Source: Spirochaetaceae bacterium
GTDB taxonomy: Bacteria; Spirochaetota; Spirochaetia; DSM-2461
NCBI GenBank assembly: GCA_027858495.1
Contig: JAQICO010000098.1
Coordinates: 1-32,084 of the forward strand
Length of the DNA stretch: 32,084 bases
Direction of reading: 5' to 3'
In this document: piece by piece, positions 15,819-31,351 of the stretch
Numbering within the stretch: the stretch's first letter is position 1
Layout: every line of letters begins with the position of its first letter
The notes under the pieces: model-generated
Database searches by the model: none
Told to the model about the DNA's origin: nothing
What the model saw: the letters and a program-made list of their open reading frames with translations, nothing else
Translations under genes and position numbers: made by a program

Positions 15819-16415
15819 TTATGCCTGGCCTATGGCTTTGCCGCTATAAAATCGACGGTATTTCCAATGCATTATTTTCCTCTGAAACCATGAAATTTTT
15901 GAAGGCGGCCCAAGAAACCATCCATCAACAACGGCTCTACAGCATTTTTCCAGGATGGATGCAGTAGCTTCAAGGTCATAGATATTTTCTGCGCAGCATA
16001 AACCGCCGGTATGGTGAACCAACAAAGCCGAGACTCCGGTCAGTGAGGCCTTTATTCTGCCAACTTGTGTAGACCGAAGAACCGGTCCGAGGATCTGCGC
16101 ACCATCATCCAGTAAACAAGGAAGATTAACTCCCAATGAAGAGGCCGCAAGACTGTATGGTCCTCGGGAAAGCAGCACTACCCTGATATTGCTTCGTGCC
16201 GCCATGGCTTGTCGGAAGAGATCCAGAATTCCGTGTGCTGGACCTATATCTGCCAATGGGCTGATCTGAACATCATGGAGACCAAGATTATCCAAATCAA
16301 CAGAACTATAGAGACAATATAAATCGGAATCATGGAGGATGGCTAAATCCCGAGGTTCCTTCAAAAGCCCCTGTTCTTTCAAGTTATTGGCAAGGTTTAT
16401 CAGCTCCTGTTTCAT
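15819..16415 (-). CDS. Degenerate class II aldolase-like protein (probable pseudoenzyme)
   Basis: A 198-residue protein that at first looks unknown but aligns by eye along its whole length with the neighbouring class II aldolase. Its VVLLSRGPYSLAASSLG falls where the neighbour has AVFHTHQIMASILASRG, and its LLVHHTGGLCCAENIYDLEA falls where the neighbour has LLANHGAVICGINVEEA. The HTH zinc-ligand pair is replaced by LSR and the upstream ligand Glu is not kept, so at least three of four metal ligands are missing; a histidine remains in the third site. It likely keeps the fold but not the chemistry. Its ATG overlaps the aldolase TGA by four bases and has GGAG six bases upstream, suggesting balanced synthesis and possibly a hetero-oligomer. 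A wholly different function cannot be excluded. Confidence 0.65.
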   Translation of the reverse strand: MKQELINLANNLKEQGLLKEPRDLAILHDSDLYCLYSSVDLDNLGLHDVQISPLADIGPAHGILDLFRQAMAARSNIRVVLLSRGPYSLAASSLGVNLPCLLDDGAQILGPVLRSTQVGRIKASLTGVSALLVHHTGGLCCAENIYDLEATASILEKCCRAVVDGWFLGPPSKISWFQRKIMHWKYRRFYSGKAIGQA

Positions 16416-17056
16416 GGAGTTCTCCTTCTGGGATATTTTTTCTTAAAATACTCCAGACGTTCTTGTGCATTTTCTACTCTACCCTCACTAAAGGCACTGG
16501 CCTGACGGGCAATATATTCTTCACAGGCCTGTTCCAACAGTCTGGTTCGTTTAAGGGCCTCTTCCACATTTATACCGCAAATCACCGCACCATGATTGGC
16601 CAGAAGCAACGCTTTGGGAGTGGTTTTCCTCAGGATTTTTTTTATATTTCTACTCATTTTGGCCGAACCCGAGGGAGCATAGGCACAACAAGGAACCACT
16701 TGGCCTAAATTTCCATGCCACTGTTGGGCAGGAAGAAAATCCCTGCCTCGGGATGCCAATATAGAAGCCATAATTTGGTGAGTATGAAATACCGCATTTA
16801 TATTTGGATTCTGTTGATAGAATATTCGATGCACTTCTCTTTCGGAGGATGGAGAATTCAGTCCTTTATATCGGCCATTATAAATGGATAACTCAACTAA
16901 ATCGGAAGGGGTAATTTGTTGATAATTGAGTCCTGAGGGGGTTATTAAAAAACTATTTTGAGAGATTCTTATGCTGAAATTTCCCCAGGTACGGTAAATT
17001 AGCCCTTCTCTAAGCATAAACCTACCCATATCGCATAATTGTTGTGCAGCGTCCAG
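16412..17056 (-). CDS. Class II aldolase/adducin family protein, probable CTG start
   Basis: A zinc-dependent class II aldolase or epimerase of the FucA/AraD family, acting on a sugar phosphate that I cannot identify. All four metal ligands are visible: Glu in SSEREVHRIFY, both histidines of FHTHQ, and the histidine in LLANHGAVICG. The phosphate-binding segment is YRTWGNFSIRI and FLITPSGLNY. The first ATG (17029) lacks a ribosome site and would remove part of helix 1. Extending upstream to CTG at 17056-17054 adds LDAAQQLCD, which completes the family N-terminal helix, and places a perfect AGGAGG (17063-17068) six bases before it. I therefore call CTG as the start, 214 residues in all. It overlaps the degenerate paralogue by four bases. 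Confidence 0.82.
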   Translation of the reverse strand: MDAAQQLCDMGRFMLREGLIYRTWGNFSIRISQNSFLITPSGLNYQQITPSDLVELSIYNGRYKGLNSPSSEREVHRIFYQQNPNINAVFHTHQIMASILASRGRDFLPAQQWHGNLGQVVPCCAYAPSGSAKMSRNIKKILRKTTPKALLLANHGAVICGINVEEALKRTRLLEQACEEYIARQASAFSEGRVENAQERLEYFKKKYPRRRTP

Positions 17057-17078
17057 TTGAATCCTCCTGAGAAATCAG

Positions 17079-17363
17079 CTATGAAACATCGGTCAAGCCC
17101 TTAACAAGCTGACTGTTACGTTTAATTATATCCCCAAGGCTGGTGATAAATCTATCAAAATCTTTCATCAGCTCCTTATTCTGCTGCATTTTCTTCTGAA
17201 TCTCCCCAGCTGCTGTATTCAAATGATCCAAACTACTTCCAACATGACTGCTCTGTTCTGCCTGTGATTGAGAGACAGAAGACACATTACGAGTCAATTC
17301 CTCAAGCCTTACCATGGCCTGAAGCATCTCTTTACTGCCGCCTGATGATTTTAAAGTACATGT
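17079..17363 (-). pseudogene. Remnant of a methyl-accepting chemotaxis protein, C-terminal part only
   Basis: The open frame from an in-frame TAA at 17366-17364 to a TAG at 17081-17079 encodes the tail of a chemoreceptor signalling domain. After KSSGGSKEMLQAM it reads as a heptad-rich coiled coil (RLEELTRNVSSVSQSQAEQ, SSLDHLNTAAGEIQKKM) ending GDIIKRNSQLVKGLTD, as in the descending helix of receptors. There is no sensor, membrane segment or kinase-control hairpin. An ATG at 17327 would give an 82-residue protein but has no ribosome site. The rest of the gene seems deleted, as the region upstream belongs to the promoter of the WG-repeat gene. A small free coiled coil made from the ATG is possible but less likely. 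Confidence 0.6.
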
Positions 17364-18593: not shown

Positions 18594-18729
18594 TTTGATT
18601 TTCGGGGTAAGGTGCGCTTTTAAAAAGCAATTCCTGACCGGCGGTTACAGCCCGCGACCTCTCCCTAGGGAGAGTTGAATTGGTGAAATTCCAATGCCGA
18701 CGGTATAGTCCGGATGGTAGAAAATCAAA
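18594..18729 (+). promoter_or_regulatory. FMN riboswitch aptamer (RFN element)
   Basis: The conserved core is plain: TTCGGGGTAAGG, then CCGGCGGTTACAGCCCGCG, then TTGGTGAAATTCCAATGCCG and GACGGTATAGTCCGGATGG. P1 is a ten-base perfect pair, TTTGATTTTC (18594-18603) with GAAAATCAAA (18720-18729). Binding of flavin mononucleotide stabilises this fold. It heads ribD-ribE-ribBA-ribH, so high FMN should reduce riboflavin synthesis. The expression platform downstream suggests control of translation initiation at ribD. Confidence 0.96.
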
Positions 18730-18846: not shown

Positions 18847-19953
18847 TTGAATCATGTAGTTTTTATGAAACAGGCACTCGCCCTGGCACAAAAAGGAACC
18901 CCAGCACCCAATCCCCATGTAGGTGCAGTGGTGGTATCCCGAGGAAAAATTGTAGGACAGGGCTACCATGAAAAAAGAGGTGGGCCCCATGCTGAAATGC
19001 TAGCCCTTGGAGAAGCAGGATCCTTGGCCCAAGGAAGTACCCTTTACACAACATTGGAACCCTGTTGCCATGATGACCCGATGAAAGTTAATGCCCCCTG
19101 TACCAAGGCAATCGTCAATTTTGGTGTGAAACAGGTGGTAGTTGCTTCAGAAGATCCCAACCCAAGAGTATCAGGTAAAGGGATTTCCTTCCTGAGGGAC
19201 AAGGGCATTAGAGTAATCACCGGCATTCAATCCCAGGAAGAGCGGTACATTAATAGAAAATATCACCATTTCAGTGGCTGCGGTCTTCCCTATGTACATT
19301 TAAAGATGGCCCAAACCATGGATGGTTATATCGCACCCATCGGCAAGGGAGGCGTAAAGATTTCCTGTGAAGAATCTCATAGAAGGGTGCATCAGTTACG
19401 GGGAAAATACCAGGCAGTCATGGTGGGTAAAAATACCCTATTGATGGATAATCCCCAGCTGACTCAACGGGGAGACTCCGGACTTAATCCCATAGGGATC
19501 CTCTTGGATCCCACCCTGGAATTACCCATTAATCTTAGGGTCTTTGAATCTAAAACAAGTGAGCGATGGATTTTTTACAACAGGAATTATTCCAATCAAA
19601 AGAAACTTTCAGAACTGTCCAATCTGGGCGTAAAAACCTTTCCAATAAATGCGGACCCGGGCAGTCTATTAGATCTTCATGAGCTGTTACAGATCTTGGG
19701 AGATCTGAATATTTCGACTCTCCTGGTAGAGGGTGGAGGAAAACTGGCGGGTTGTTTATTGGAAGATCATCTGGTTCAGGAGATCACCTGGTTTGTGGCT
19801 CCTTTCTTTTGGGGACAAGGACAGCCTTGCATAACAGCACAGGGGATTATCCCCAAGGGATTTCAGCGTTTTGAAATTCAAAACTGCCTGTCCAGCGGTT
19901 CAGATGTTGAAATTAATGGAATATTCAGGGGGACTTTATGTTCACAGGGATGA
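18847..19953 (+). CDS. ribD: Bifunctional riboflavin deaminase-reductase RibD, TTG start
   Basis: A 368-residue enzyme for the second and third steps of riboflavin synthesis: deamination of the pyrimidine, then reduction of its ribosyl side chain. The N-terminal deaminase has PNPHVGAVVVS, the zinc motif GGPHAEM and TLEPCCH...APC. The spacing between the two zinc cysteines is eleven residues, three more than in the common EPCxHxGxTPPC form. The reductase begins YVHLKMAQTMDGYIA and includes VMVGKNTLLMDNPQLTQR and LLVEGGGKLAG. AGGAG seven bases upstream selects TTG at 18847; the next ATG (18865) is too far and would cut into the conserved start. The TGA overlaps ribE by 16 bases. Controlled by the FMN riboswitch. 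Confidence 0.94.
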   Translation: MNHVVFMKQALALAQKGTPAPNPHVGAVVVSRGKIVGQGYHEKRGGPHAEMLALGEAGSLAQGSTLYTTLEPCCHDDPMKVNAPCTKAIVNFGVKQVVVASEDPNPRVSGKGISFLRDKGIRVITGIQSQEERYINRKYHHFSGCGLPYVHLKMAQTMDGYIAPIGKGGVKISCEESHRRVHQLRGKYQAVMVGKNTLLMDNPQLTQRGDSGLNPIGILLDPTLELPINLRVFESKTSERWIFYNRNYSNQKKLSELSNLGVKTFPINADPGSLLDLHELLQILGDLNISTLLVEGGGKLAGCLLEDHLVQEITWFVAPFFWGQGQPCITAQGIIPKGFQRFEIQNCLSSGSDVEINGIFRGTLCSQG

Positions 19954-20561
19954 TAAAAGAAATCGGCCGAGTTCTTGGTGTAACCAGGAGCCGTAACTAT
20001 ATGCGTTATGAGATATCCAGTTCCAGGATAATAGATCAGCTTGAACTAGGTTCTTCGGTAGCCCTGGACGGGGTATGTCAAAGTGTAACTGCTCTGGGGC
20101 GGAAAAGTTTTACCGTGGAAGCTCTTAGCGGAACCCTGGATAAAACGACCCTGGCCTATATTTATCCGGGTATTTATCTGAATCTGGAACCTTCCTTAAA
20201 TCTGGGGGATGGTATGGATGGACATATGGTACAGGGCCATGTTTCCGGGCAGGGTGTGATCAAGGCCATAGAGAAAAGACCTAAGGACTTCCTTGTAAGG
20301 GTGGACTGTTCCGGCTGGAAAGGCAGGCTACTGAAGGAAGGCTCCATCGCCCTGGACGGAATCAGTTTGACCGTCTATGACATGTTTTCCCAGGGCTTTG
20401 TTGTCAATATTATTCCCGATACCTGGTCCAGGACCACCTTACCCATGAAACGTGTGGGCCAAAGAGTGAACCTGGAAGAAGATATTCAGCAACGAATCAT
20501 CGGGGAATCAATAGAAAAAAGCCAAATGGTCGATGAAAATAAATTAAAACAATGTGGATAA
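19938..20561 (+). CDS. ribE: Riboflavin synthase, alpha subunit
   Basis: A 207-residue riboflavin synthase that dismutates two molecules of 6,7-dimethyl-8-ribityllumazine into riboflavin and the pyrimidine precursor. It begins MFTGMIKEIGRV and shows the internal duplication typical of the family: SSVALDGVCQSVTAL in the first barrel and GSIALDGISLTVYDM in the second, with HMVQGHVSGQGVI between. Length is close to the usual 200-220. A GGGGGACTTT sequence directly before the ATG provides the ribosome site inside the end of ribD, with which it overlaps by 16 bases. The reading frame is intact. Confidence 0.95.
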   Translation: MFTGMIKEIGRVLGVTRSRNYMRYEISSSRIIDQLELGSSVALDGVCQSVTALGRKSFTVEALSGTLDKTTLAYIYPGIYLNLEPSLNLGDGMDGHMVQGHVSGQGVIKAIEKRPKDFLVRVDCSGWKGRLLKEGSIALDGISLTVYDMFSQGFVVNIIPDTWSRTTLPMKRVGQRVNLEEDIQQRIIGESIEKSQMVDENKLKQCG

Positions 20562-20563
20562 CT

Positions 20564-21751
20564 ATGATTCTATATATAGATGTAAAAGAAGCAGTAAAAC
20601 GTCTTAGCAATGAAGAAATGATCATTCTGCAGGATTCGAAAGACAGAGAAAATGAAGGGGATATACTCTTCTTTGCTCAATACAGCAGTAAAGAAAAAGT
20701 CCGTTTTTTAGTGGACAGGGCTAAGGGTTTGATCTGTGTAGCCCTAAGCGAAAAAAAGGCTGATAAATTGGGATTGACTCCCATGGTCCGTGAAAATAAC
20801 AGCCTCCACTATACGGCCTTCACACAATCGCTGGATGCCCTGATGGGAATAAGTACCGGTATTTCTGTGATGGACAGGAATACCACCATCTCTCTGCTGG
20901 GTCAGCAAAAGGCTCAACCCGGTGATTTCGCCAGACCGGGACACATATTTCCACTAATAGCAAAAGAGGGCGGCATATTAAAGAGACCGGGACATACCGA
21001 GGGAGCGATTGACCTGGCAAGGGCCGCCCAGTGCGAGGAAGCGGTGGTAATATGTGAAATCCTTGGAAAGGGGGATTCCATGGCCCGGGGTAAAGAACTA
21101 ATGGATTTCGCCGAGGAAGAAGGCCTGGGGATATTAACCATAGAAACTCTTATGCAATATTTTTTCAAAGCATACAATACCGTTGAACTTCCCCTGTCTC
21201 AGGGTAATTTTTTCTTGAATACCTATCCGGTTCTAGGGGAAGAAACCCAACATCCCCTGGCTTTGATTTCTCAAAATCATCCTATGGGAGAATCCCCCTT
21301 AGTACGAATTCATTCAGAATGTATGACTGGCGATGTCTTCGGCTCAAAACGCTGTGACTGCGGAGAGCAGCTGGAAACATCCCTGGAAATATTATCCAGG
21401 GAGGGCGGAATACTCATTTACCTTCGCCAGGAAGGCCGGGGAATAGGTCTTATAGAAAAAATGAAGGCCTATGTACTTCAGCAACAAGGGCTGGATACCC
21501 TGGAAGCAAATACCGCCCTGGGTCATGCAGCAGATCTTAGAGACTACCAAACAGCCGCGTTGATATTGAGAGATTTGGGTATCCAATCCATAAAATTACT
21601 AACCAATAATCCCGACAAAATCCTCCAGATGGAAAACCAGGGTTTTAAAGTGGAACGACATTCTCTTGAGATTCAGCCTAAGAAGGAAAATCTTAAATAT
21701 CTGCTCACAAAAAAAGAAAAATTTAGTCATCAGCTAAGCATAGGAGTATAG
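20564..21751 (+). CDS. ribBA: Bifunctional DHBP synthase / GTP cyclohydrolase II
   Basis: A fused RibB-RibA enzyme of 395 residues supplying both riboflavin precursors. The N-terminal domain makes 3,4-dihydroxy-2-butanone 4-phosphate from ribulose 5-phosphate: [26 protein letters not shown] and [20 protein letters not shown] are present. The C-terminal domain opens the imidazole ring of GTP: zinc ligands in [15 protein letters not shown], catalytic [11 protein letters not shown], and KLLTNNPDK. Two starts are possible; I prefer ATG at 20564 because it follows the ribE stop by two bases with a partial GGAT site, whereas ATG at 20552 overlaps ribE and has no ribosome site. Both domains appear complete and likely active. 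Confidence 0.94.
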
Positions 21752-21753
21752 CC

Positions 21754-22215
21754 ATGAAAGAATATTCAGCCAATTTAATTTGTACGGAAAAGAAATGGGC
21801 CTTTGTGGTCAGCCGGTTCAACGATTTGATAACCGGACAATTATTAAAGGGTGCCGAGGATGCAATAATCCGTCACGGTGGGCAGGGTGACGATATTACC
21901 TTGATCAGGGTTCCCGGGGCCTTTGAACTTCCTCTGGCTGCCCAGAGAGCTGCCCGAAGTGGAAAATATAATGGAGTACTATGCCTGGGGGCGATAATCA
22001 GAGGGGCCACTCCCCATTTTGATTTTGTTGCCTCCGAAGCAGCCAAGGGCATTGCACAGGTAAGTTTAAAGGAAGACTGCCCCATTTCCTTTGGAGTATT
22101 AACCACCGACAGCATGGAACAGGCTCTGGAACGGGCGGGAGTAAAGGGAGGCAACAAGGGATTTGAAGCAGCTTTAGCTATGATTGAAATGGCCAATTTA
22201 TTGGAGTTGTTATAA
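21754..22215 (+). CDS. ribH: 6,7-dimethyl-8-ribityllumazine synthase
   Basis: A 153-residue lumazine synthase, the usual length, joining the RibD product with dihydroxybutanone phosphate. Family features are [42 protein letters not shown] with the catalytic histidine, [19 protein letters not shown] and [10 protein letters not shown]. It starts two bases after the ribBA stop and has AGGAG eight bases upstream. It is the last gene of the operon, followed by a long perfect hairpin at 22239-22270. These enzymes usually assemble into pentamers or icosahedral shells. Confidence 0.96.
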
Positions 22216-23392: not shown

Positions 23393-24139
23393 TCAATTCC
23401 CCAAAAGGGTCTTCAGCAGGGCACCTGCACCTGCTGCGGGATCCTTTCCCTGGACCATGGCAGTCTGGATAGCCCGAACCAGCTGAGAACCCACAATCTG
23501 TCCGGCCGAGATAGGCGCCAGCATTTCCACCTGCTCTGCCTTTTGTATGCCAAAGCCCACATAGACATTGACGTCCCGCTGCTGCAGTTCCTTCAGAAGG
23601 GTTATCTGTTCCTCCCCCAGTTCGGTATAGGTCCCGGTGATTCCCCGGCGCAATACCAGGTATATCCATTCCGGTTTAAGATCCAGAATTTCTTCCAGCC
23701 GTTTTTTATCCACCGTGCTGATAAGTACAGGAACGATTTCCATTCCCGCAGCATCTCCAGCGGCATAGAGCCCTTCATCCAGGCCGATACACAAATCTGG
23801 AATGATCAACCCTCTTGCTCCGGCTTCCTTGGCCCGGCGGACATAGTTTTCCACTCCAACGGTGTAAACCGGACCGCCGTAACTCATGATATAGATAGGT
23901 CTATCGAAGGCTTGTGAAATGTCCTTCACCATTTTAAAGCCCTGTTCCAGCTTAAACCCGGCATCGAGAGATTTTTGACAGGCCTCCTGAATCACCGGGC
24001 CGTCGGCCATGGGGTCTGAATAGGGGAACTGAATTTCCAGAGCGCCGGCTCCGGACTTGATCAGTTCTTCCGCTATCCTGCGGGATTCCTCCATACTGGG
24101 GTATCCTGCTACTAAATGGGTCATCATATTTTTAGCCAT
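23393..24139 (-). CDS. trpA: Tryptophan synthase alpha subunit
   Basis: A 248-residue TIM-barrel that cleaves indole-3-glycerol phosphate to indole and glyceraldehyde 3-phosphate. The catalytic Glu lies in GALEIQFPYSDPMADGP, which also includes the catalytic Asp. Other conserved parts are YIMSYGGPVYTVG, GLIIPDL and YVGFGIQKAEQV. It starts [15 protein letters not shown], a short N-terminus. I prefer ATG at 24139, overlapping the trpB stop by eight bases, because GAGAG lies just ahead. An in-frame ATG at 24157 would add six residues not typical of the family. The TGA is followed after one base by the chorismate mutase ATG. Confidence 0.94.
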   Translation of the reverse strand: MAKNMMTHLVAGYPSMEESRRIAEELIKSGAGALEIQFPYSDPMADGPVIQEACQKSLDAGFKLEQGFKMVKDISQAFDRPIYIMSYGGPVYTVGVENYVRRAKEAGARGLIIPDLCIGLDEGLYAAGDAAGMEIVPVLISTVDKKRLEEILDLKPEWIYLVLRRGITGTYTELGEEQITLLKELQQRDVNVYVGFGIQKAEQVEMLAPISAGQIVGSQLVRAIQTAMVQGKDPAAGAGALLKTLLGN

Positions 24140-25349
24140 AGGTTCTCTCACTTTCATCCTTTAAAAAGGCTCTCCATTCTTCTCCGCCCAGGGCGCCTGC
24201 GGTTATAAAAAGATCCTTATCTCCCCGTCCGCTCATATTAACCACCAGGGTCTTGCCCGGTCCAAGTTCCTTGGCCAGTTCCATGGCACCGGCACCAGCA
24301 TGGGCGCTTTCCAAGGCGAAGTTACCGCATTCGGTACGGGCAAAGAACTTCAGGGCCTCCAGGGCTTTATCGTCGGTGGCCTCGCGAAATTCCACCCGTC
24401 CGGTATCGGCCAGCGCTGCCAATTGAGGGCCTATCCCCGCATAATCCAAACCCGCTGAGATGGAGTGGGTATGCTGTACCTGGCCTTCGTCATCTAGCAG
24501 GAAACGGCTCTTGTAACCTTGGACAATGCCCACCTTTCCTTCGGTCATACGGGCGGCATTTTCACCAATCCCTGGTCCGCGGCCACCGGCTTCTACGCCG
24601 ATCAATCGGGGGGTTGCTTCATCTATAAAGGGCTCAAAAAAGCCGATGGCATTGGAGCCACCGCCCACACAGGCGATCATGGCGTCCACTTTATCCATAT
24701 CCAGTTGTTCCTTCACTTCACGGCCGATGACCGACTGGAATTCCCTGACCATATGGGGATAGGGTGCTGGTCCCAGGGCGGAGCCCAAAACATAAAAAGT
24801 ATCACTGAAGGTGGCGGCCCAGTCTCGTAGGGCCTCGTTTACCGCATCCTTCAGGGTTTTGGTTCCGCTTTCCACCGACACAACCTTGGCTCCAAACATC
24901 TCCATCCAAAACACGTTGGGCTTCTGACGTCGGATATCCACCGAACCCATGTATACCACACATTCCAAGCCCAGCCGAGCACAGGCCGCCGCTGTGGCCA
25001 GACCGTGCTGGCCGGCTCCGGTTTCTGCGATCACCCGGGTTTTACCCATGCGTTTGGCCAATAGAGCCTGTCCCAGGGCATTGTTAATTTTATGGGCGCC
25101 GGTATTGGCCAGCCCCTCTAATTTTATGTAAATATCCGCACCGCCTAATTCCCGGCTGGCATTTTCCGCATGCAGCATGGGTGTAGGCCGTCCGATATAG
25201 GTCTTTCGGTATTTTTCCAGATCGGCCATAAAGGCCGGATCAGCCATGGCCCGGGTAAAGGCCTCTTCCAGCTCTTCCAGGGGTTCCCGAAGGACCTCGG
25301 GAACATAGCGGCCCCCGTAGGGTCCAAAAAAACTATCCACCAAATTCAT
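24132..25349 (-). CDS. trpB: Tryptophan synthase beta subunit
   Basis: A 405-residue PLP enzyme that condenses indole with serine. Signatures: [13 protein letters not shown] at the start, the PLP lysine in [21 protein letters not shown] for the substrate carboxylate, the phosphate loop [10 protein letters not shown], and [14 protein letters not shown] near the C-terminus. Length is typical for TrpB1 partners of TrpA. Its ATG lies within the last codons of the uninterrupted TrpCF frame, overlapping by 17 bases, and the end overlaps trpA. Sampled lines in this gene are 57-58% GC, higher than most of the window. Intact. Confidence 0.97.
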
Positions 25350-26778
25350 AGGCCTCTATCTCCTTAAAGAATTTCTTTATTTTGTTATGATCCTTTATCC
25401 CCGGCTCTTTTTCAAGTCCGCTGGAAAGATCCACTATATAGGGGTTATATTCCCTCAATACTTCCAAAATATTATCTGGATTCAATCCGCCGGCCAGCCA
25501 TCAGGGCTGCTCTGCGGCCTGTAAATCATCCCTAGATATCTGCTCTCCCGTGCCGCCGGCCACTCCCGGACGGTAAGCATCCAGCATCACAGGCTGGGGA
25601 CCATAGTCCTTTATCTTCTGCAGATCCTCCGCTGCCTTGGGGCGCAGGGCTTTATAACCGGGATACCCCCGCAGTATGGAAGGTTCTTCCTTTCCGTGAA
25701 ACTGCAGAGCCTGCAAATGCCCCTGGGTTAACAATTTTTGAATATCCTGAGGGACATCCTGTCCGTGTTCCAGTACCACCACGCCCACCCTGGGGATGAT
25801 AGAGCCGTCCTTCCGGGTAAATTTTTCAAGGTCCAGGGAGGCGATAAATTCCAGAGAATCATTCCTGGGAGAAGGAGCCAGGATAATGCCCAGCTGATCG
25901 GCTCCGGCATCAACGGCAGCTGCTACATCTTCCTTTCGGGTGAGACCGCATAGCTTTACCAAGGGCCGTCCGGGCTTTTTTCCGGCCATGATATGTTTCC
26001 ACACAGCATAGTGATCCTGGGTTGGTTCTTCAAAGCATTGGGCTAACTCCTGGGCTAATCCAGCTTTACGAACCACTCCTTCGCCCACTAAAATTCCAGA
26101 AAAGCCTGTGCTTAATACAAATCGGGCTTCTTCGGCGTAGAAAATCCCCGATTCGTAGACCACTTTACAGGGCCATTGGATTTTCTGCATCAGCGCCAGG
26201 GGCATCAGCCGGTCCAGCTTGAAGGTTTTCAAATCCCGGCAGTTGATTCCCACAACCGGGGGATTCAGGGGCGCAACGGACTGTAACTCCTCTTCATTAT
26301 GTATCTCCACCAGGGGAGTCATTCCCAACTCCACTCCCCGGCGGAACATTTCTTCCAGCCTTTGGGGCTCCAGCATGGCGGCAATCAGTAAAAAGGCGTC
26401 GGCGCCGCAACGATAGGCCACTTCAATATCTTCCACATGAAGTAAAAAATCCTTGCGCAACACCGAAACCTCGGGATGGGCCTGCTTCAGAGCAATCAGG
26501 TCTGCCAGGCTGCCGCCGAAGTAATCCTCCTCGGTTAGCACCGAGATATTGCCGGCGCCGCTCTGCTTATAGAGAGCGCCCTGTTTTACCGGGTCCAGCT
26601 GGGCGTTGATCACACCCTTTCTTGGGGATTTGCGCTTCACCTCGCAGATAAGCCCGTTTTTTGCCATAAAGGGAGTAATGGGTACTAGCCGCTCATGGGG
26701 AATTTCCACCCCCAGGCCAAAACCTTCCACATCCAGACGCTGCTGGCGCCGCTGAGCAATTTCTTGCAATATGGTCAT
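25333..26778 (-). CDS. trpCF: TrpC-TrpF fusion, interrupted by an in-frame TGA
   Basis: Indole-3-glycerol-phosphate synthase (about residues 1-255) fused to phosphoribosylanthranilate isomerase (about 275-481). TrpC shows [42 protein letters not shown] and GILVGEGVV. TrpF shows the catalytic cysteine in [22 protein letters not shown], and the catalytic Asp in [14 protein letters not shown]. At 25503-25501 a TGA stops the frame after QAAEQP, yet the same frame continues with [15 protein letters not shown] and [17 protein letters not shown], the phosphate-binding end of TrpF, up to a TAG at 25335-25333. If the stop is real the 425-residue product lacks two barrel strands, and TrpF should be inactive. 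A sequencing error is the simplest alternative. TAG of trpGD directly precedes the ATG. Confidence 0.9.
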
Positions 26779-28374
26779 CTAGGCTTCCTTATTTCTGGCC
26801 TGGAGTTTTTTTACCAGAGCAGCTGTTTTGCCGCCATCCAGAGCCTCAGCAGCCAGTTTTATGCCCTGGGCGTAGTCCTTTGCTTTGCCGGAAACCATCA
26901 AGGCTACACCTGCGTTAAGTACGCAGATATCTCGAAGGGCCTTTTTGCCCTTGCCCTGTAAAAGTTCCCGGGCCTGGTCAGCATTTTCAGCACCTGTACC
27001 ACCCTTCAGATCTTTCATGTTTACAAGATCAAATCCCAAGTCCCGGGGATCCATGGAAAATTCCTTCTCTGTTCCGTCTTCTTCAATGAGGAAACACTGG
27101 GTGGTGGTGGTCAGGGAAATTTCATCCAGACCGTCGTCTCCCCGAAGGGTCATCACCCGTTTCACACCCAGCATCCGGGCGGCCCGGGCCATAATGGGCA
27201 ACATCTTGGGTTCGTAAACACCGATCAATTGATAACTGGCCGAGGCAGGATTCACCAAGGGACCAAGACAATTCATTATAGTTTTAATGCCCAATTCCTG
27301 ACGTACCGGACCGGCATGTCTCATGGCTCCATGGAAAAGCGGAGCAAATAGAAAGCTGAATCCTTCTTGCTCGATAGAATCGGCGGCCTCCTGAGGGCTC
27401 TGCTCAATGGGCAAGCCCAATTCCCGGTAAAATTCCGCACTGCCGCTCCTGGAGCTGACGGCCCGGTTACCATGTTTGGCTATCACTGCTCCGGCCGATG
27501 CTGCAATAAGGGCGGAAAAACTGGATATATTAAAGGTTTCCAATCCGTCTCCGCCGGTGCCGCAGGTATCCAGGGTCTCCCGAGGCACCTTCACGTGCTT
27601 TTTCTTCTTCATCAATACGCCGGCACAGCCCGCCACTTCCTCGGCGGTAATGCCCTTACAGTTCAGCCCCACCAATACTGCGGCGATATAAGCCGGATTC
27701 AAATTCCCTTCGGTGAGCTCATCCATAAATTCTGCGGCCAATTGCTGACTTAGATCCTTACCGGCCAGCACGGTGCTGAGGATTTCCTTCTTACGGAAGG
27801 GCAAACGGTGATATTTCAAAAAATTACGCAGCAGGGCCTTGCCCATGTCGCTTCCGGCAGACTCAGGATGAAACTGAACTCCTTCGATATCGTATTCTTT
27901 ATGACGCAGCCCCATTATTTCTCCGTCGGCCGTGCGGCTGGTAATCTCCAGGCAATCAGGCAGACTGCTTTCCTGAGCTGCAAGGCTATGGTATCGGACA
28001 AATTGAACTCCCTGGGGCAATCCTCTGAATAAGCCCATACCATCATGTTCCACCACTTCCTTTTTACCGTGAACAATCCGTTGAGCGCCGATGATTTTGC
28101 CCCCAAAGGCCGCGGCAATGGCCTGATGGCCCAGGCAAACACCTAGAAGGGGTATTTTTCCGGCGAAATGCTTGATGGCCGCCAGTGAGATTCCCGCTCC
28201 ATCGGGTCTGCCAGGCCCTGGCGAGATAATCAGGGAATCGGGATTTAGAGCATCCAGTTCCTCCAGAGTCACTTTATTATTTCTAAAAACCTTAAGTTCC
28301 TCGCCGGAAAGCTCAGAGACATACTGCACCACGTTATAGGTGAAGGAATCGTAGTTATCTATCATTACAATCAT
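26779..28374 (-). CDS. trpGD: TrpG-TrpD fusion: anthranilate synthase glutaminase / phosphoribosyltransferase
   Basis: A 531-residue fusion. The TrpG part (about 1-190) supplies ammonia to TrpE: MIDNYDSFTYNVVQYV, oxyanion loop SPGPGRPDGAG, nucleophile Cys in LGVCLGHQAIAAAFGG, and His-Glu in GVQFHPESAGS. The TrpD part (about 200-531) adds phosphoribose to anthranilate: DTCGTGGDGLETFNISS for pyrophosphate binding, KHGNRAVSSRSGSAEF, NCLGPLVNPA and LRGDDGLDEIS. The TrpG-TrpD arrangement is known from enterobacteria. GGAGG lies seven bases ahead of the ATG within the end of trpE. Both domains look complete. Confidence 0.95.
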   Translation of the reverse strand: MIVMIDNYDSFTYNVVQYVSELSGEELKVFRNNKVTLEELDALNPDSLIISPGPGRPDGAGISLAAIKHFAGKIPLLGVCLGHQAIAAAFGGKIIGAQRIVHGKKEVVEHDGMGLFRGLPQGVQFVRYHSLAAQESSLPDCLEITSRTADGEIMGLRHKEYDIEGVQFHPESAGSDMGKALLRNFLKYHRLPFRKKEILSTVLAGKDLSQQLAAEFMDELTEGNLNPAYIAAVLVGLNCKGITAEEVAGCAGVLMKKKKHVKVPRETLDTCGTGGDGLETFNISSFSALIAASAGAVIAKHGNRAVSSRSGSAEFYRELGLPIEQSPQEAADSIEQEGFSFLFAPLFHGAMRHAGPVRQELGIKTIMNCLGPLVNPASASYQLIGVYEPKMLPIMARAARMLGVKRVMTLRGDDGLDEISLTTTTQCFLIEEDGTEKEFSMDPRDLGFDLVNMKDLKGGTGAENADQARELLQGKGKKALRDICVLNAGVALMVSGKAKDYAQGIKLAAEALDGGKTAALVKKLQARNKEA

Positions 28375-28376
28375 TG

Positions 28377-29780
28377 TTAGACCTCCAGTCCAATGGCCCC
28401 GGCCAGGGCTCTCATTTTTTCATTGGTTTCTTCCAATTCTCTTTCCGGTTGGGAATCATAGACGATGCCCCCTCCTGCCTGGAAGACGAATTTCCCGTCA
28501 ATTTTCAAGGAACTTCTGATGGTTATGCAGGATTCTGTTTTACCACCGGCATCGATAAATCCCACCAGACCGGCGTAAAAATCCCGGTTGATCTTTTCGA
28601 TTTTTCCGATACGGTTTACCGCTTCAATTTTAGGAGCTCCGGAAACAGTGCCTGCAGGAAAGGTCTTTCGGATCACCTCATCGGCCCCCACACCGGGTTT
28701 CAAGGTTCCTTTCACTTCAGAAACGATGTGCATCACCTTGGAATATCGTTCGATGGTCCTTAGGGCGGTTACTTCCACCGAACCGGCCTGGCAGATTCGG
28801 CCTAAATCGTTTCTTGCCAGGTCAACCAGCATCAGATGTTCTGCCGCTTCTTTTTCATCGGCCAGCAGCTCCTTTTCCATGGCTAGATCCTCGACGCGGT
28901 CTTTACCCCTTCGACGGGTTCCGGCGATGGGCCGTACCGTAGCGGTGGTTCCATCACTCTGAACCTGCAGTTCCGGAGAGGCGCCGAAAAGCTGATATTC
29001 ACCAAAATCCAGATAAAATAGAAAGGGTGAAGGATTGCTGCGCCTAAGGTTGCGGTAGGCCTCCAGGGCGGACATGGTAGATTCCACTTCTAAGCGCCGG
29101 GAAGGAACACATTGCAGAAGATTACCTGCAACGATTTCTTTCTTGATAATCTCAACCGCCTTTTTATATTCCTCTTCCCTCTCTTTGGAAGATATTATTT
29201 TAAATTTATGCTGATGCCGGTTTTCTTTGAGATAGTTAAAATCCAGATCTTCGATGCGTTCTACAGTCTCTTTCATAAGAGCATCCAAATCGCAGGATCT
29301 GTCTTTGTAATTCAGCCCAACCAAATTAATCTCATCACGGTAATGGTCATAGATTAAAAATAAATGTCCAAAGATGAATTGAGCCATGGGAATCAAAGAA
29401 GGTCGTTCTTTGGGGAATTCCATGGCATCACAGAACTGGGAAAACTCGAAGGAGAGGTATCCCACGCCCCCCGAGGGAACGGGAAAGTCCACTTCTTTAT
29501 CCAGCGCTTCATGCTCTTGGGCTAGGGCCACACAGAAATCCAGTATATCTCTGCCCTTACGTTCCAGCTGTTCCCATCCCTTGGGACTGCTGCGTTTGAT
29601 CTCTGGAGTGTCCTCCATATGAATCAACCGAAAGGCCTCTTTAACCAACAATACCGAATATCTTGCCTGACCTTTATCTAGGGAGGTAGACTCCAAAATT
29701 ACCGAAGCCCCCAGTTTTTTAGCCAGTCCAAAGGGAGTAAACCTCTCCCCATCCAGGGTTTTTATCAAATAGGATTTCAT
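28377..29780 (-). CDS. trpE: Anthranilate synthase component I
   Basis: A 467-residue enzyme that, with TrpG, turns chorismate and ammonia into anthranilate. The segment VILESTS followed by RYSVLL matches the tryptophan-binding LLES region, so feedback inhibition is likely. The chorismate-binding core is intact: QCVPSRRLEV, FLFYLDFGEYQLFGASPE, RPIAGTRRRG, HLMLVDLARNDLGRI, TFPAGTVSGAPKIEA and IQAGGGIVYDS-like FQAGGGIVYDSQPE. The start is ATG at 29780 with GGAGG five bases upstream; an in-frame TTG at 29792 overlaps that ribosome site and is unlikely. First gene of the trp operon, under the promoter and palindromes just upstream. Confidence 0.95.
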   Translation of the reverse strand: MKSYLIKTLDGERFTPFGLAKKLGASVILESTSLDKGQARYSVLLVKEAFRLIHMEDTPEIKRSSPKGWEQLERKGRDILDFCVALAQEHEALDKEVDFPVPSGGVGYLSFEFSQFCDAMEFPKERPSLIPMAQFIFGHLFLIYDHYRDEINLVGLNYKDRSCDLDALMKETVERIEDLDFNYLKENRHQHKFKIISSKEREEEYKKAVEIIKKEIVAGNLLQCVPSRRLEVESTMSALEAYRNLRRSNPSPFLFYLDFGEYQLFGASPELQVQSDGTTATVRPIAGTRRRGKDRVEDLAMEKELLADEKEAAEHLMLVDLARNDLGRICQAGSVEVTALRTIERYSKVMHIVSEVKGTLKPGVGADEVIRKTFPAGTVSGAPKIEAVNRIGKIEKINRDFYAGLVGFIDAGGKTESCITIRSSLKIDGKFVFQAGGGIVYDSQPERELEETNEKMRALAGAIGLEV

Positions 29781-29793
29781 CACTTCCTCCAAA

Positions 29794-31010: not shown

Positions 31011-31084
31011 GGTGAATGTAGTTCAGCTGGTAGAGCGTCAGATTGTGGTTCTGATTGTCGCGGGTTCAAGTCCCGTCATTCACC
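31011..31084 (+). tRNA. tRNA-His (GTG)
   Basis: Acceptor GTGAATG (31012-31018) pairs with CATTCAC (31077-31083). The extra G at 31011 opposite C at 31084 is the hallmark of tRNA-His. The anticodon loop TTGTGGT carries GTG, and the T loop is GGTTCAAGTCC. CCA is not encoded. Confidence 0.95.
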
Positions 31085-31094
31085 CTGGAAATGT

Positions 31095-31168
<74 letters not shown>

Positions 31169-31176
31169 CATACATT

Positions 31177-31249
31177 GGGCCGTTAGCTCAGATGGTAGAG
31201 CAGCAGACTCTTAATCTGCGGGTCAAAGGTTCGATCCCTTTACGGCTCA
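31177..31249 (+). tRNA. tRNA-Lys (CTT)
   Basis: Acceptor GGGCCGT (31177-31183) pairs with ACGGCTC (31242-31248) with one wobble. The anticodon loop CTCTTAA holds CTT, and the T arm AAAGGTTCGATCCCTTT is complete. Discriminator A; CCA is not encoded. Confidence 0.95.
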
Positions 31250-31271
31250 TAAAAAAAGAAAGATTGTACTT

Positions 31272-31351
31272 GCGAGAGTGGTGGAATTGGTAGACACGCT
31301 GGTCTTAGGAACCAGTGCTCCGGCATAAGGGTTCGAGTCCCTTCTCTCGTA
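31272..31351 (+). tRNA. tRNA-Leu (TAG)
   Basis: Acceptor GCGAGAG (31272-31278) pairs with CTCTCGT (31344-31350). The anticodon stem CTGGT/ACCAG encloses the loop CTTAGGA with TAG. A compact extra arm (TGC...GCA) marks it as class II. At 80 bases it is short for tRNA-Leu. CCA is not encoded. Confidence 0.94.

Follow-up and report, generated by a model that had tools for sequence, protein, structure and literature searches.

In the window, by which we mean the whole stretch of DNA that was analysed (32,084 nucleotides, contig JAQICO010000098.1 of the Spirochaetaceae bacterium assembly GCA_027858495.1), we found two overlapping genes of the class II aldolase family, A and B, on the minus strand (Table 1). 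The A protein is 214 residues long when read from a CTG at 17056 and 205 residues long when read from the first ATG at 17029 (16412–17029). The CTG sits six bases past an AGGAGG sequence (window 17054–17068), and the conserved N-terminal helix of A opens at the CTG, so that a start at the ATG would trim part of this helix. Judging from these features, CTG is probably the start codon of A. Directly upstream of A there is an 82-residue open reading frame (17079–17327, minus strand) without a Pfam match; by eye it looks like the end portion of a chemotaxis receptor, and it is possibly a remnant co-transcribed with A. A promoter and terminator scan around the A/B pair gave nothing better than shuffled sequence. 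A and B are the only Aldolase_II proteins found in the window's genome, which is 74% complete. Elsewhere in the window there is an FMN riboswitch (18594–18729, plus strand, 102.8 bits) that precedes a riboflavin-type gene run at 18847–22215 (by eye), a tryptophan-type gene run on the minus strand at 23393–29792 in which trpG-trpD and trpC-trpF are fused by eye, and a cluster of four tRNA genes at 31012–31351 (plus strand).

Table 1. Features of the A/B locus, in window coordinates.
Feature	Position	Strand	Basis
Gene A, zinc-bearing class II aldolase subunit	16412..17056	minus	PF00596 150.6 bits; open reading frame and start
Probable ribosome-binding site AGGAGG for CTG start of A	17063..17068	minus	Sequence; putative function
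Gene B, zinc-less paralogue, 198 residues	15819..16415	minus	Open reading frame; PF00596 21.6 bits; model Z 21.6 to FucA
Overlap ATGA, holding the B start codon and the A stop codon	16412..16415	minus	Sequence
Probable ribosome-binding site of B, AGAAGGAG, within the 3' end of A	16422..16429	minus	Sequence; putative function
A Glu72, aligned with FucA Glu73	16841..16843	minus	Alignment
A His91-Thr-His93, aligned with FucA zinc ligands His92/His94	16778..16786	minus	Alignment
A His155, aligned with FucA zinc ligand His155	16592..16594	minus	Alignment
B loop LDDGAQ (residues 102-107), at FucA 112-117 in the alignment, Tyr113' among them	16095..16112	minus	L, D, D, A and Q invariant in B alignments
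B residues 182-190 (M182, Y186, Y190), C-terminal tail; Y190 aligned with FucA Tyr209	15846..15872	minus	M, Y and Y invariant in B alignments

The score of B against the Pfam Aldolase_II family (E 2.2e-4) lies just below the cut-off of 22.2 bits, and BLASTP gives a weak match between B and A (24% over 113 columns, E 2e-4). When B was modelled with AlphaFold2 from a 25-sequence alignment (pLDDT 90, pTM 0.83), the model superposed on E. coli FucA over 180 residues at 2.0 Å, and the 50 matches listed in a Foldseek search with this model were all proteins of the class II aldolase fold. Because the B model superposes on FucA despite the weak BLASTP match, the likeness in fold between B and A is more than chance. 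The A half of a natural fusion matches FucA with a Z of 28.5. Sequence searches with B alone gave no match in the PDB and confirmed no relative in genome contigs; in both cases the B profile did find matches. When A was searched against the NCBIfam sugar-phosphate aldolases and epimerases, the best score was 113.4 against a cut-off of 251 and none reached its cut-off among the matches listed (25 of 31); the NCBIfam search with the window's B gave no match.

At the positions of FucA E73, H92, H94 and H155 we found E, H, H and H in A, and I, L, R and T in B. A therefore carries the three-histidine metal site and catalytic glutamate of an active class II aldolase, and B does not. The initial annotation had aligned B with the neighbouring class II aldolase and had noted that B lacks the HTH zinc ligands and the ligand glutamate; both observations are borne out, and the predicted fold of B is that of a class II aldolase, not one foreign to the family. 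The same annotation had taken the ATGA overlap to imply fixed co-production. The overlap is there, and by itself it would imply coupled translation, not complex formation; however, in 26 adjacent A/B pairs the spacing varies, the extremes being an overlap of 10 bases and a gap of 12 bases (starts picked by script), and the four-base overlap is thus not universal.

Pairs, fusions and single-gene relatives

Of 61 genomes, 12 have a match to B, counting the one that contains the window, and the pair is not unique to this strain. In five other genomes A and B are adjacent, with an ATGA overlap in each (L004–L008), and at four loci A and B lie in one open frame of 360–409 codons (L009, L011, L014, L015). 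Three loci carry a single complete aldolase, which we call S (L010, L012, L013); S is a single-gene relative with the zinc site, LDDxAQ and tail on one chain, and is defined by its loop. We then have a larger set of 110 loci (L030–L139) from a search of the B profile in 394 genomes of the class (30 loci) and in genome contigs (the best 80 of at least 423 loci), with domains classed by their aligned residues. Among these 110 loci, which include two entries each for at least three contigs (L031/L060, L045/L087 and L042/L123), 46 are fused (41 A-B and 5 B-A), 26 are adjacent (19 with A then B and 7 with B then A), 34 have S alone, 3 were listed as A alone and 1 has a zinc-less domain alone (L069). 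The three listed as A alone consist of one other loop type (L058), one S cut by the contig end (L096) and one S variant. Where carriers have a name, they come from the phyla Spirochaetota, Bacillota, Thermodesulfobacteriota and Myxococcota; Desulfoluna spongiiphila (A/B, L065) and Paenibacillus taihuensis (a natural fusion, L139) are examples.

The 83 zinc-less domains reduce to 75 at a 98% identity limit, and for 74 of these 75 distinct domains the locus also encodes a zinc-bearing partner, either adjacent or fused. As a reverse control, we searched the A profile in the 394 genomes: the best 30 matches comprise 24 A domains (the window's own included), every one of which has a B, and 6 S domains. 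The solitary zinc-less domain (L069:1951–2607, a Bacteroides MAG) is an S-type aldolase that stands without a partner in its locus. The glutamate and one zinc histidine are changed; in other respects it closely resembles the S-type L077, and it may be a sequence error or a stand-alone dead copy.

In a 93-row tree made with a quick method, B forms one clade (SH-aLRT 100), S branches beside A and B, and A forms one group save for AraD, which falls inside it, and L148, which falls outside it. When the tree was built without the trait columns (AraD and L148 left out), B is again one clade (99), A needs two changes and some long B branches meet. The window's A and B lie on long branches in the 93-row tree (1.26 and 1.13). 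Because the A-B and B-A orders both occur, separate as well as fused, fusion has probably taken place more than once.

We also looked at the genes around these loci, with the operon families named on 9 representatives and L069 counted as a pair; because of contig ends, all counts are lower bounds. A class III aminotransferase is nearby in at least 59 of the 92 flanked loci (17 of 22 pair loci, 26 of 38 fused loci and 16 of 32 S loci), an FGGY kinase in at least 51 (15 of 22, 15 of 38 and 21 of 32, respectively), and a TetR-type regulator in at least 24, across pair, fused and S loci. Since the operon partners are similar, A/B seems often to occupy the place that S has in other bacteria. When nine operon proteins were compared with NCBIfam, no curated cut-off was reached among the matches listed, and we therefore leave the substrate without a name; a literature search for such an aminotransferase/kinase/aldolase gene cluster found nothing relevant.

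We considered whether the window's pair lies inside this operon and rejected it, as the flanking genes scanned are an MCP-signalling protein, a WG-repeat protein and the 82-residue frame. In the window's genome, as far as its 74% completeness covers, there is no close relative of the operon aminotransferase or of the FGGY kinase (best matches 27% and up to 28%, in short pieces). Because these operon genes have no close relative in the genome, the window's pair may have drifted to another role, and, taken with the long branches of A and B, their absence suggests that its substrate may differ.

Conserved positions divided between A and B

Excerpts of published work describe the active sites of FucA and AraD as each built by two adjacent subunits, and suggest FucA Tyr209 for epimerisation (PMC5434028). 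The FucA site is common to two neighbouring subunits and includes Tyr113', Met114', Val202' and Phe206' (PMC11274987), where the prime denotes the neighbouring subunit; Glu73 and Tyr113' are described as essential, with a catalytic role for Tyr113' (PMC11841055). FucA mutants Y113F and Y113F/Y209F appear in titles of PDB entries. Tyr209 is presumably also contributed by the neighbouring subunit.

To compare the paralogues, we sorted the domains into three sets: B (75 distinct domains, zinc-less), A (73 domains, zinc-bearing and accompanied by a zinc-less partner) and unpaired (52 domains, zinc-bearing but without such a partner). The class labels take account of nothing but the zinc ligands and whether a partner is present, and L069 and L096 were excluded from the count. 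The reference consisted of 76 positions whose conservation reaches 94% or more across 34 S rows, with B represented by the 74 rows that remain without L069. We found that 22 of the 76 positions are kept by A and lost by B, mainly in the zinc and phosphate pocket, or 20 when the two label-defining zinc histidines are set aside; S residues T26, W27, G28, N29, P43, G45, Y48, P72, E75, H96, Y130 and H157 are present in 100% of A and in 0–30% of B. In the other direction, 12 of the 76 positions are kept by B and lost by A, and these make up the LDDxAQ loop and the C-terminal tyrosine tail; S residues L114, D115, D116, Q119, K178, M203, Y207 and Y211 are present in 97–100% of B and in 0–29% of A. 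The window's proteins follow this pattern, with A retaining 19 of the 22 and B 2 of the 22 positions of the first group, and B retaining 10 of the 12 positions of the second. A retains 2 of these 12, its loop reads AQQ..G, and it thus lacks the loop and tail of an S-type homomeric aldolase.

The loop residues DDQ are kept in none of the 73 A domains. Among the zinc-less domains 74 of 75 have DDQ and one has EDQ, although for the B rows from the genome-contig search the LDD motif was a built-in condition of the search; the motif also occurs in B domains that came in through the A profile, and the loss in A is unaffected by this selection. Unpaired zinc-bearing domains, which were reached through B or LDD searches and are for this reason a biased sample of the loop, have DDQ in 35 of 52 and EDQ in 15 of 52, and the remaining two are L148 and the protein of genome G174 described below. 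Loop variants in B are rare (IDD in L193 and LED in L154). Among A rows, 13 of 73 keep the first loop Asp and 6 of 73 keep both, and the loop is deleted from A in three fusions. The window's A has a tyrosine at the FucA Tyr209 column, the sole case in the 73 A rows. Zinc-site loss in B is not total in every case, with one of the three histidines kept in 37 of the 75 zinc-less domains and two kept in 3. In a set drawn from several phyla (22 B and 3 S sequences), eleven columns are invariant.

When S is aligned to FucA, D115 falls at Tyr113, D116 at Met114 and Y211 at Tyr209. Because the set of positions kept by B includes those of FucA Tyr113 and Tyr209, it appears that B keeps what reaches across to the neighbour and A keeps what does not.

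A candidate shared active site and its parallels

Homomers can in principle turn into obligate heteromers by complementary loss after duplication, and to our knowledge there are few clear natural cases in which one shared active site is parted between paralogues. From the comparative sequence evidence, we consider it likely that A and B are subunits of one class II aldolase-type enzyme, an obligate hetero-oligomer that would have arisen when an ordinary homotetrameric aldolase of the S type was duplicated and the two copies underwent reciprocal loss. In the proposed arrangement, which draws on the tetramers of the family, A and B would alternate in a C4-like ring, as A2B2 or as two A-B fusion chains. 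Zinc and substrate would be held on A, and the neighbouring B would insert its loop into the A site, bringing an Asp at the FucA Tyr113' position together with a further Asp and a Gln, while the tail Tyr of B (FucA Tyr209 position) would also enter the A site. There would then be two working and two vestigial sites. With the following B completing each A site, the loop and tail that A itself carries, like the metal site of B, would be free to decay. In the window, the ATGA overlap would couple the translation of A and B. The reaction is probably the aldol cleavage or 4-epimerisation of a phosphorylated ketose, with dependence on a metal. A model of the natural fusion L067 (pLDDT 92.5, pTM 0.90) has confident domain packing and fits a rigid packing of A against B. 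The initial annotation had suggested that a dead partner could complete or regulate a hetero-oligomer; the near-constant partnering of zinc-less domains and the loop and tail kept by B and lost by A support such a complex and favour "completes". The reciprocal loss in A is an addition to that annotation, which had only the loss in B.

An unlikely alternative has A catalytically self-sufficient and B acting as an allosteric or stabilising partner outside A's active site. Excerpts on the trypanosomatid deoxyhypusine synthase supply a precedent for an activating dead paralogue (PMC3663545), and the 13 of 73 A rows that keep the first loop Asp speak for it; however, B keeps almost without exception the positions that reach the neighbour's site, these are what A has lost, to the point of loop deletion in the three fusions, and a pure regulator is not expected to preserve exactly the neighbour-reaching residues. 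That A/B fusions occur in both orders, and that B is found without a zinc-bearing partner in just one of 75 cases, makes it quite improbable that B has a separate function, as a ligand sensor or other enzyme, and is merely co-regulated with A, even though the vestigial pocket of B would be free for another ligand and many B proteins of Clostridia retain a single His, with Asn at the position of the third ligand. We give very little credence to B being a decaying duplicate without function: its zinc site is lost and several B rows have long branches, but B has the eleven invariant columns, forms one old clade, and is encoded by an intact open reading frame with a plausible ribosome-binding site.

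This one enzyme family includes the S form encoded by a single gene, A and B as neighbouring genes, and both A-B and B-A fusions, many of them in operons that resemble one another, which makes each step testable. If A and B are indeed halves of one hetero-oligomeric enzyme, proteins annotated as "class II aldolase" may be inactive alone, and single-gene screens would miss their activity. In genome G174, ranked a few places under the best 30 of the A-profile matches, there is a 293-codon A-B fusion frame (L190:3314–4165) in which the B half is cut to an LDDFAQIAG loop, one helix and an MRFVYLKKYSK tail, without the zinc-site strands. Compared with three full fusions of its family, the A half of this frame is 52–54% identical to two and 44% identical to the other. 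By eye, there is a repeat-element-like stretch at the A/B junction, and a 500-codon frame upstream resembles the operon aminotransferase. We raise only tentatively, as a doubtful reading, that the dead partner B is a mere carrier of two catalytic segments and able to shrink to them. The frame comes from a single genome and may represent a gene in decay, yet what survives of B is what the proposed mechanism deems important. If the G174 form is functional, there would be a natural series within one enzyme family from one-gene enzyme to heteromer, to fusion and to a minimal donated segment.

In a literature search for heteromeric or pseudoenzyme class II aldolases, in which few subscription journals were covered, we found none but adducin among the matches listed, and a split of the shared site in the class II aldolase family appears to be new within the literature searched. 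Adducin alpha/beta (8IAH) is described, in the excerpted source, as a heterotetramer of aldolase-fold domains that has lost enzymatic function (PMC12599920). Unlike A/B, in which one partner retains the full metal site, adducin is a non-enzymatic cytoskeletal protein, and B is a stand-alone protein of 198 residues without other Pfam matches and so is not of the adducin multidomain type. In the trypanosomatid deoxyhypusine synthase (PMC3663545) and the AdoMetDC prozyme system (PMC6221367), excerpts describe an active enzyme that requires a dead paralogue in a heteromer. A/B shares with both a conserved pairing of active and dead paralogues, given that all but one of the 75 zinc-less domains are partnered; in contrast to A/B, those are other enzymes of eukaryotic parasites, and B is predicted to donate catalytic residues directly.

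Among class II aldolases, E. coli FucA resembles A/B in its fold, in the metal ligands and Glu of A and in a site formed from two adjacent subunits, but it is a homotetramer with both halves on one subunit, whereas in A/B each paralogue carries one half and Asp replaces Tyr113. E. coli AraD (L-ribulose-5-phosphate 4-epimerase) shares the fold and a two-subunit site, with Asp120 and Tyr229 given as catalytic residues in the available excerpt (PMC5434028); it has one kind of subunit, however, and Asp120 aligns with the Gln of LDDxAQ, not with its Asp. The S-type aldolases (among them L045, L066 and L129) are the nearest single-gene relatives and have similar operon partners, but they differ from A/B in carrying the zinc site, LDDxAQ and the tail together on one chain.
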